Shown here: piece after piece, positions 29,969-42,825 of the stretch
Layout: each line of letters starts with the position of its first letter
Numbering within the stretch: position 1 is the stretch's first letter
Source: Acidobacteriaceae bacterium
Lineage (GTDB): Bacteria > Acidobacteriota > Terriglobia > Bryobacterales > Bryobacteraceae
Assembly: GCA_019240405.1 (NCBI GenBank)
Contig: JAFAYL010000013.1
Span: forward strand, 186,001 to 250,000
Length of the DNA: 64,000 nucleotides
Reading direction: 5' to 3'
Position numbers and translations under genes: made by a program
The notes under the pieces: model-generated
Told to the model about the DNA's origin: nothing
The model's database searches: none
Seen by the model: the letters and a program-made list of their open reading frames with translations, nothing else

Positions 29969-31555
29969 TCAGTGCGCTAGGATTTCCGTCAAGACACGTC
30001 CGGATGAGCCGCTCGGCGTTTCGATATCAAGGATGGCGGCCAGAGTGGGGGCTATGTCGTTCACCTCGATTTGTTCGTCATAGCGGCCGGGTTTGACACC
30101 CGGTCCCATGAAGAGAACAGGAACATGGCGGTCGTAATTGTAAGGCGAGAAATGCGAGGTCCCGTGGGTGCCGGGCAGGTAGTTGGGCTCGATTACGACG
30201 AAGATGTCGCCGCTGCGAGGCGGATAATAGCCGTTCATTTCGGCGCGTGCGATGAAATCGCCAGAGAGACCAGAGTCGAGCTGGTCGCGAGTGTAGACAC
30301 GGGCAACGTGCAGCTCCGGAGCGGATAGCAAAGCGTCTCGAGCGTTGTCATAAACTTCTTTCTCCGTAACGCGGTTTCCGGTAGAAGTTTTGAACGCTTC
30401 GATCGCATGCCGATTCAGGTATAAACTTGTTTCTTCGGCTGGAATTAGCCAATCGGCTGGACCAAACCGTTTGGTTAAGACATCCCGCACGACTGTTTCC
30501 GGATTTGTTGGGACATAACCGCCGGGCATTTTTCGCTCTTTATCGACAGCCGGTAAAGGAGCTACGCCATGATCGGCAGAAAGAACGATTACTACATTTT
30601 GTAGTCCCACCTGCTTATCAATTGCGGCGAAGAGCTTACCGAGCTGCTGATCGGTGCGGATTGCCATATCGCGGACTTCGGGCGCATCCGGCCCGACCGC
30701 GTGGCCGATGTAGTCGTTCGAGGAGAAAGAAATCGTCAGCAGATCGGTCGGCCCGCGCTGGCCGAGCTTTTCGCCGGTGATTGCCTGTTCGGCGAATTGC
30801 TCAATTAGCTCGTTGCCCCACGGACTCGCGGGAAGCCTCTCGTAAGGCGCTTTAGTTGTTCCATGAAAATTCCAGTTGGGAAAGCCCGGCCACTTTTGAT
30901 CGATGTACTTCGCGGGGAGTTTGCGGTTATTAAATAAGCTCGCCCATGATGGAAGCTGATTCGTATAAAAGCTGCTCGTGATGAAATTTCCGCTGGCGTC
31001 GTCGAACCAATAAGCGGCGGCTGCGCGATGACCGGACGGCAGAATCGCACCCCGGGCTTTGATGGAAACACCGATGACTTTAGAATCTTCGCGCGCGTTG
31101 CGAAGCTCGTCGCCAATCGTACTGACCAGGAGACGCCTTGGGGAGGCGGGATCAGAATCGGTACATTTGGGCCCTTTTTCGGGGCTTGGAGCACCCACGT
31201 TGACTGCCTCCCAATCGCAAACGCTGGTGACAATTTTCGCTTCGGCGCGCTCGTACCAAGAGTTGCCAATTATCCCGCTTACGGCAGGCATTGCTCCTGA
31301 CATGAATATGCTGTGGCCGACGGCGGTAACGGTCGGGACCTGAGTGTAGAAGGCGTTGGTGAAATCGGCGCCGCGGGTGATGAGCTGATTGAGGCCGCCG
31401 TGGTAGTCGCTCCGAAAACGCGTCAGGTAATCGTAACGGAATTGATCGATGATGATGGCAACGATTAGTTTCGGGCGGGCGATCGCGGTGAATGAAGTAC
31501 TCGCCAGGAAAGAAAGCAGTATCGCGGCTAAGATGGTGAAGCGACGGGCGGACAT
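29969..31555 (-). CDS. Exported alkaline phosphatase, PafA-like
   Basis: A 528-residue alkaline-phosphatase-superfamily enzyme with signal peptide (residues 1-26). Metal and nucleophile sites resemble PafA-type monoesterases: D37 in AIIIDQFRYDYL, Thr77 in VPTVTAVGHSIFMSG as the probable nucleophile, FSSNDYIGHAVGPDAPEV, LSADHGVAPLP and, near the end, GTHGTSHFSPYNYDRHVPVLF. The family releases phosphate from monoesters, often under phosphate starvation. Among the minus-strand run it is the first gene. Confidence 0.88.
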   Translation of the reverse strand: MSARRFTILAAILLSFLASTSFTAIARPKLIVAIIIDQFRYDYLTRFRSDYHGGLNQLITRGADFTNAFYTQVPTVTAVGHSIFMSGAMPAVSGIIGNSWYERAEAKIVTSVCDWEAVNVGAPSPEKGPKCTDSDPASPRRLLVSTIGDELRNAREDSKVIGVSIKARGAILPSGHRAAAAYWFDDASGNFITSSFYTNQLPSWASLFNNRKLPAKYIDQKWPGFPNWNFHGTTKAPYERLPASPWGNELIEQFAEQAITGEKLGQRGPTDLLTISFSSNDYIGHAVGPDAPEVRDMAIRTDQQLGKLFAAIDKQVGLQNVVIVLSADHGVAPLPAVDKERKMPGGYVPTNPETVVRDVLTKRFGPADWLIPAEETSLYLNRHAIEAFKTSTGNRVTEKEVYDNARDALLSAPELHVARVYTRDQLDSGLSGDFIARAEMNGYYPPRSGDIFVVIEPNYLPGTHGTSHFSPYNYDRHVPVLFMGPGVKPGRYDEQIEVNDIAPTLAAILDIETPSGSSGRVLTEILAH

Positions 31556-31703: not shown

Positions 31704-31949
31704 ATGGCAATCGAGATCAAGCGGTGCTTCTTTTGAAGCGATATCAAAGCGGAGGCCGTGAGCCTCAAGAACCATATTGGACGTGAATTGCACGTACCGA
31801 TTCGGTTACGCATGGGCGCGCCTGGGGGGTTGGACGTTTTCGTAGACGGCGAAGAAATTTACTCGAAGAAAAAAACAGGACGTCTGCCGACAGCCGCTGA
31901 ACTGATCAACTTGATTCGCGGGAAACTCCCTGGGGCCATCAGTGTTTAA
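31704..31949 (+). CDS. Candidate SelW/Rdx-like selenoprotein with in-frame UGA
   Basis: Reading from ATG 31704 gives MAIEIKRCFF, then TGA at 31734-31736, then 70 more codons to TAA at 31947. If UGA is selenocysteine the product has 81 residues with C8-F-F-U11, the C-x-x-U redox motif of SelW/Rdx proteins. The part after the UGA matches the family: APGGLDVFVDGEEIYSKKKT, then GRLPTAAELINLIRG. These thioredoxin-like-fold proteins usually carry CxxC or CxxU right after the first strand, which is exactly where the UGA falls. A hairpin downstream fits a bacterial SECIS. Its last 11 bases overlap the convergent YprB-like gene. A conventional gene caller would report only 31758-31949 from a GTG. A nonsense-mutated Cys pseudogene is the main alternative. 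Confidence 0.72.
31737..31781 (+). promoter_or_regulatory. Candidate bacterial SECIS hairpin
   Basis: Immediately after the UGA. Upper stem GAGGC (31752-31756) pairs with GCCTC (31762-31766) around the loop CGTGA, which has a G at its second position as expected for bSECIS. Twenty bases separate the UGA from the loop, within the usual 16-37. A lower stem CGATAT (31739-31744) pairs with ATATTG (31774-31779, one G-U) across a symmetrical 7x7 internal loop. Bacterial SECIS elements lie in the coding region like this and bind SelB. Confidence 0.55.
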
Positions 31950-33240
31950 GGGGATGCGATGACTTCGCACGCCGTGCTTTGGGCTTGGCCAACCGTTTTT
32001 CTAAACGGGTTCTCCGGTGGAGGAGCGAGGAAGATGGCCGGGCAGCGAGTGCTTTGTTCGTAAATTCGAGCGCAAGAGCGAAATCGTTCTCCTCGTGTTC
32101 GTAGTGTTTAGCGAGTTCCTCGAGCGCGCGAAATCGAAAGGGATTTGTACAGCTCACCAGCTCTGTAAAGACGCGAACGGAAGCAGCGTGGCAGCCGAGT
32201 TTCTTTTCAATTAACGCGACATCCCACAGCGCTCGAAATAGCAAAGCGTCGGGAAGGCCTGTGTCAATGGAGCGCTTCAAGAGTCCGAGCGCTTGCTCAG
32301 GTTGATCGGTCGCGAGCAACCAGCGAGCGATCCCGGCCAAGTCCTCACCCCGTTTCACGCCTATTTGGGCCAGTGCCTGAAAATCAGTGGCGCGGAACGC
32401 GGTAGGGACGATAGCGGTTAAGCAGGCGAGGGTCAAGATGTCCATTGCGTTGTGATGGAAAATCGGCACCAAACGGCGGGCTTCGTGAGAGCGCAAGTAT
32501 TCGAAATAGACGTAGGGGATCAGGTCGCCAGGCAAATCGCCGTCCCGGTAGTAGCCGAGAATTTCCCGCTCGAGCTGGATCAGGCGACAGCTTTCGCCAC
32601 GAAGCTTCCACAGCCGACGCGCTCCGTAGAGCAGGTCGAGGTGTTGGAGTCTTAGAAACGGATGTGGTTGCCGGCCGAGCGTGTAGCGTGTCTCGAGCAG
32701 CGGTTGGTCATAGGTTTTTCCGTTGTAGGTGATTAAAACGTCGAACTCGTTCAAATGGGCCTCGAGAGCAGCCAGTGTGCTGCACTCTTCGGTGTAGTGG
32801 CGCATGAAAAACTGGCGCACGCGGAAACCCTCGCGCGTGATACGACCCACGCCGATCAAGAAAGCATACGCGCTACCGCCCGTACTCATCAAACCGGTTG
32901 TTTCGGTGTCGAGAAACGCCCAACGCTCAGGCGCTACAGGGCGAATTTCGCCGGGTCCTAATACATCTAGCAAGTCGTGAGCTAGATAAGCCAAGGCACC
33001 CACATCCGCAGAACCGTGAGGCCGATGTGAGGGAAACAGGCGTTCGGTTTGGAAGTGCGGCCCGAATTCGTTGCTTACGATTTGGCCTGTCGACCACTCC
33101 TCGATAAAGGAGCGCGGACTTTGTAAATGAGGAAGCAGATTTTCGGAGCGCCTTGGTTGTGTGGAAAAGCTCGAAAATCTAGCGTTGATCAACGCTATTC
33201 GTTCCTTTAAACGTCCGAGTTGTTCCTGCGGATCCAGCAA
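31939..33240 (-). CDS. YprB-like ribonuclease-H-fold exonuclease with TPR tail
   Basis: A 433-residue protein with a DEDD-type RNase-H-like domain (about residues 105-275): FLDTETTGL (first acidic pair), LITYNGKTYDQPLLETR, LDLLYGARRLWK and the final HHNAMDILTLACL. Residues 300-420 are TPR-like helices (LARWLLATDQPEQALGLLKR, ELAKHYEHEENDFALALEFTNKALAA). The family is known from B. subtilis YprB and is predicted to be a nuclease; substrate unknown. The basic C-terminus overlaps the selenoprotein candidate's 3' end by 11 bases. Confidence 0.87.
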   Translation of the reverse strand: MLDPQEQLGRLKERIALINARFSSFSTQPRRSENLLPHLQSPRSFIEEWSTGQIVSNEFGPHFQTERLFPSHRPHGSADVGALAYLAHDLLDVLGPGEIRPVAPERWAFLDTETTGLMSTGGSAYAFLIGVGRITREGFRVRQFFMRHYTEECSTLAALEAHLNEFDVLITYNGKTYDQPLLETRYTLGRQPHPFLRLQHLDLLYGARRLWKLRGESCRLIQLEREILGYYRDGDLPGDLIPYVYFEYLRSHEARRLVPIFHHNAMDILTLACLTAIVPTAFRATDFQALAQIGVKRGEDLAGIARWLLATDQPEQALGLLKRSIDTGLPDALLFRALWDVALIEKKLGCHAASVRVFTELVSCTNPFRFRALEELAKHYEHEENDFALALEFTNKALAARPSSSLLHRRTRLEKRLAKPKARRAKSSHPLKH

Positions 33241-42562: not shown

Positions 42563-42587
42563 CTTCGATACGCTACTCTAATATCGC

Positions 42588-42772
42588 TGTTGGTACGCTG
42601 AACCTCTCAACTGAGGGAAGGCGTTTAAAAGGGAACCTGGCGCGAATCCAGGACTGCCCCGCAGCGGTAAGCAGGAACGAACGGCCAAAAGGCACTTGCG
42701 AAAGAAGGGAAGCCGGGCCAGTAGAAACGCGATCTGAATGGCCGCCCGCCTGTAAGTCCGAAGACCTGCCGC
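42588..42772 (+). ncRNA. Cobalamin riboswitch
   Basis: The conserved core is directly readable: AAAAGGGAACCTGG, then GCGAATCCAGGACTGCCCCGC, AGCGGTAAGC, and the 3' B12-box portion AAGTCCGAAGACCTGCC. It binds adenosyl- or methylcobalamin and normally shuts off the downstream gene when B12 is plentiful. A further hairpin CCGCTC-atgat-GAGCGG (42776-42792) follows but with only a short T-poor tail, so control is more likely at translation through the gggaggg site at 42814-42820 than by termination. It precedes the TonB receptor gene. Confidence 0.95.
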
Positions 42773-42825
42773 AGCCCGCTCATGATGAGCGGAACTTTAT
42801 TTGGTCGCCTCGCGGGAGGGCTGTC

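Follow-up and report, generated by a model that had tools for sequence, protein, structure and literature searches.

A predicted selenocysteine-type SelW/Rdx gene with a conserved in-frame UGA in a divergent Acidobacteriota clade

Introduction

Bacterial SelW-like selenoproteins form an established and abundant family, known since 2005-2006 (PMC1088965, PMC1794560, PMC2398784). They carry a CxxU motif for which a redox function has been proposed (PMC1088965). Zhang and co-workers noted few or no Cys homologues of SelW-like proteins in Sec-using organisms (PMC1794560). In the case of C. jejuni, Ribo-seq and proteomics have shown that SelW (CJnc60/selW) is translated through its UGA codon (PMC11955535).

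Here we describe a SelW/Rdx-like gene in a 64,000-nucleotide stretch of an Acidobacteriaceae bacterium genome (the window, C56:186001-250000; genome of 4.45 Mb, 96% complete). The gene resembles the described bacterial SelW-like selenoproteins in its length of about 80 amino acids, its N-terminal CxxU, its predicted thioredoxin-like fold and the placement of a SECIS-like element immediately after the UGA. Unlike them, the clade to which it belongs displays RC[FL]xU-xDIKAEAxSLK instead of YCxxU-NYLPRAA, and its SECIS loop is mostly of the CGUGA type, as compared to GGUCU/AGUCU in YCxxU-type bacterial SelW. A predicted UGA-encoded Sec is also shared with Campylobacter SelW (NF041051), a protein of 80 amino acids. 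However, the score of 31.8 bits against the NF041051 cut-off of 88 indicates that the family is shared and the subgroup is not. The Cys-type Rdx proteins (CxxC-RWxLRAAW) have the same Pfam family and fold as the window protein but constitute a separate group, and are not Cys orthologs of the window gene. A description of an RC[FL]xU clade combining CFFU with a loop of the CGUGA type was not found in the open-access papers searched. The kind of gene is already known, and the novelty is modest. It consists of this divergent clade of Acidobacteriota, marked by CFFU and by a SECIS loop of the CGUGA type, and of a single relative in which both redox residues have been lost.

Results and Discussion

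Locus and reading frame

Translation of the gene identified a lone internal stop, a TGA, in an 81-codon frame, and a product that reads MAIEIKRCFF-U-SDIKAEAVSLKNHIGRELHVPIRLRMGAPGGLDVFVDGEEIYSKKKTGRLPTAAELINLIRGKLPGAISV (Table 1). This agrees with the original prediction, which had described a C-F-F-(TGA) motif created by one in-frame TGA. The prediction had also stated that gene callers would report a 63-residue fragment devoid of the active site, and a plain ORF search indeed returned nothing else at the SelW locus. Reading the UGA as Sec thus corrects a misannotation produced by standard pipelines.

Table 1. Coordinates of the SelW/Rdx-like gene, its elements and its neighbors, numbered from the first nucleotide of the window.
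Feature	Position	Strand	Description
Rdx/SelW-like selenoprotein gene	31704..31949	+	81 residues, counting UGA as Sec; ATG start, TAA stop
UGA codon, proposed Sec	31734..31736	+	codon 11
C-x-x-U redox motif	31725..31736	+	TGC TTC TTT TGA = C8-F-F-U11; C and TGA in 21/21 clade members
SECIS core (putative)	31752..31766	+	5-bp stem GAGGC/GCCTC, loop CGUGA, conserved G at loop position 2
Truncated ORF	31758..31949	+	63 aa from GTG; standard ORF search
Type I phosphodiesterase gene	29969..31555	-	flanking, unrelated
RNase_H_2 protein gene	31939..33240	-	flanking, unrelated

Both flanking genes lie on the minus strand and are unrelated, so that the SelW gene stands alone. Elsewhere in the window, a cobalamin riboswitch was detected at 42573-42787 on the plus strand (88 bits).

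Family membership and predicted fold

Profile searches were performed with C substituted for U. The Pfam Rdx family (PF10262) was matched above its cut-off (E 1.1e-7; 32.3 bits against 22.6). The NCBIfam SelT/SelW/SelH models were matched with E values of about 1e-7, yet fell under their curated cut-offs (TIGR02174, 31.5 against 34.2; NF041051 as given above), and the gene was for this reason not assigned to the Campylobacter equivalog. A clade profile searched against the PDB matched MIEN1 (2ljk), and matched bacterial SelW-related structures weakly.

An AlphaFold2 model with a mean pLDDT of 77 was built from two aligned sequences, those of the window protein and one relative. The model predicts a strand at residues 3-7, the CFFU loop at 8-11, a helix at 14-29 and then three further strands, which places CxxU in the loop joining strand 1 to helix 1 of a thioredoxin-like fold. 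The best Foldseek matches to the model were SelW-related crystal structures (TM 0.76-0.81), among them 2p0g, 3dex and 2fa8 (TM 0.76-0.80). Mouse SelW (2npb) was also recovered, and the top 22 matches were all SelW-family proteins. These results bear out the SelW/Rdx assignment of the original prediction and identify the protein as a small redox protein of the bacterial SelW/Rdx family.

Conservation of the TGA codon

The RC[FL]xU clade set, assembled by searching at the level of order, class and family, comprises 21 loci from 20 genomes, including the source genome, in ten genera. TGA is kept at the Sec codon in every one of these loci and the Cys form is absent from the clade, so that the closest relatives carry TGA and not TGC or TGT. 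Substitutions are largely synonymous both 5' and 3' of the TGA. The ratio pN/pS is 0.05 upstream of the TGA codon and 0.18-0.24 downstream, figures which are descriptive because related pairs are non-independent; they point to purifying selection on the part after the TGA.

An ancestral Cys codon that mutated to TGA, in a pseudogene or through a sequencing error, would also give an interrupted frame. Decay of this gene does happen, as a same-genus genome (G152) carries a second SelW copy (L108/L009; G152:C101:5501-5635, minus strand) that is 5'-truncated and without the CxxU part, and which is a decaying duplicate. In the clade, however, TGA occupies the same codon in all loci across ten genera, no member has a Cys form and the flanking change is mostly synonymous. 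Since TGA and the downstream frame are conserved together, the locus is neither a sequencing error nor a pseudogene, and we regard this explanation as refuted and very improbable.

The same comparison bears on whether the UGA could be a genuine stop, with a separate 63-amino-acid protein initiated at the internal GTG as the functional product. This reading is what an ORF finder yields. However, constraint within the gene is strongest in the codons upstream of the UGA, the GTG is present in only 14 of the 21 loci (the remainder having GTC or Gly codons), and the shorter product would lack strand 1 of the fold together with the active site. A protein starting at the GTG is thus extremely improbable.

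The distribution of the clade is patchy: within the order it was found in 8 of 200 genomes, and the gene is therefore dispensable. In one clade homologue (L074; G776:C81:226632-226853, plus strand), the frame is intact and the motif is now TPLFP, with Cys and Sec both gone. This genome retains a full selB (400 bits), and the protein is possibly a repurposed, non-redox Rdx protein.

A conserved stem-loop downstream of the UGA

A hairpin with a five-base loop, its second base G, had been proposed 20 bases past the UGA, and was confirmed. It consists of GAGGC (31752-31756), the loop CGTGA (31757-31761) and GCCTC (31762-31766), with the stem beginning 15 nt and the loop 20 nt downstream of the UGA. 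In a single sequence such a hairpin is weak evidence, because roughly 3.3% of all TGA trinucleotides across the window precede a comparable GC-rich 5-bp hairpin by chance and the single-sequence fold of the window hairpin was not significant (z = -1.27). The case for a SECIS element was therefore built solely on pooled and covariation evidence; the hairpin is strong evidence because it is conserved in relatives.

Across the 21 clade loci, standard pairs occupy 101 of 105 cells; sliding the 3' arm by one or two bases lowers this to 37-45. At the outer pair, 14 loci have G-C and 5 have C-G, a compensatory change. The base on the 3' side of this pair is the third position of a Leu codon (CTC/CTG), where the change is synonymous and tracks the first base of codon 6. 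G is found at loop position 2 in 21/21 loci. Codon usage displays the same constraint: Glu codon 6, under the hairpin, is GAG in 13/13 cases, whereas Glu codons 13, 15 and 17 are mostly GAA. The codons under the hairpin are thus frozen, and elsewhere other codons are used for these amino acids.

In an eight-sequence alignment all 40 cells were paired. The covariation score of these eight sequences was matched by 19 of 500 shuffles, a modest result of a kind that relatedness inflates. When 37 loci were pooled, the hairpin region was more stable than its synonymous recodings (mean z -0.88, against -0.20 to +0.17 in control windows), with the per-sequence recoding tests in that set mostly non-significant when taken singly. 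Taken together, the hairpin is conserved as RNA. The YCxxU group mostly has a GGUCU- or AGUCU-type loop and a slightly shifted pairing register.

Selenocysteine machinery in the genome

The source genome encodes a tRNA-Sec with anticodon TCA (75 bits), selA (508 bits), selB (363 bits) and selD (349 bits, without internal stop); the absence of these genes, which would have spoken against the original prediction, was not observed. The cis and trans parts of Sec insertion are all present and conserved. Among the other 19 clade genomes, 17 have selB above its threshold. The remaining two are fragmented assemblies of about 780 contigs (G135), in which selB pieces are visible, and about 1140 contigs (G843). 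Co-occurrence with selA is uninformative, as this gene is found almost throughout the order, exceeding the cut-off in 164 of 200 genomes.

It was also considered whether the UGA is decoded as Trp, Cys or Gly, either because the code is reassigned or through unspecific read-through. No support for this was found. TGA terminates 18 of the 44 long ORFs in the window, which indicates a standard genetic code; the genome has tRNA-Sec and selA, selB and selD; and the UGA falls at the Sec/Cys redox position of Rdx. Such decoding is accordingly about as improbable as initiation at the internal GTG.

The evidence as a whole instead favors, with a probability of about 0.96, a gene encoding an 81-residue thioredoxin-like Rdx/SelW protein in which Sec would be inserted at position 11 through SelB and the downstream stem-loop. 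The decoding that had been predicted is supported by Rdx homology, the machinery, the TGA of the clade, purifying selection downstream and the conserved hairpin. The unexceptional single-sequence fold, the scores under both NCBIfam cut-offs and the patchiness of the clade weigh against it. During translation, the stem-loop just 3' of the UGA would recruit SelB carrying Sec-tRNA(UCA), and Sec would be inserted in place of termination. We infer that insertion at this UGA depends on SelB and that C8 and U11 of the C-x-x-U motif act as a redox pair, which the model places in the loop joining strand 1 to helix 1. By analogy with the family, the pair most likely performs reversible redox chemistry of the selenenylsulfide type, with small thiols, peroxides or protein disulfides as substrates. 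The clade could serve as a test case for the role of SelW in bacteria.

A second gene in the same genome, encoding an FdhA-like molybdopterin oxidoreductase (L109, G000:C47:3051-3803), contains an in-frame TGA within ARI-U-HSSTVPGLG (ARI-U-HSSTVPGLGASFGRGG), followed by a hairpin with a GGTCT loop. It is likely a second selenoprotein gene of the genome, and its loop type differs from that of the SelW gene. The clade offers a compact natural data set for the SECIS loops accepted by one SelB. A more tentative suggestion, which we consider possible but rather doubtful, is that the RC[FL]xU clade represents an Acidobacteriota SelW subfamily distinct in function, with its own substrate and SECIS loop type (CGUGA/GGGAC), that the SelB which serves it also reads a loop of the GGUCU type within that genome, and that one lineage (TPLFP) was repurposed to a non-redox function after losing Cys and Sec.

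Distribution in Acidobacteriota and other Rdx groups

The post-UGA part was matched in 100 of 396 genomes sampled across the phylum. The best 29 of these matches, the window excluded, were translated, and in all of them a TGA directly precedes the matched part; they comprise 28 loci of YCxxU type and a single member of the RCFFU clade (L033). Complete loci inspected outside the CxxC group all have TGA, except one in which both residues are lost. Distant Acidobacteriota relatives are thus mostly Sec forms, and Sec-type SelW proteins are widespread in this major soil phylum, with about a quarter of the sampled genomes matching the post-UGA part.

Ten Cys forms were recovered. They constitute their own fully supported group, CxxC-RWxLRAAW, with TGC at the position, and a separate Cys group in Acidobacteriota fits the statement of Zhang and co-workers (PMC1794560). 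Five further Rdx-like loci (L081, L083, L087, L089 and L105) display [HS]CPTU-xNNKxKVxSL and a C-terminal GNW[FL]TRxFGAGYP. These also have TGA and are another Sec-type subgroup within the class.
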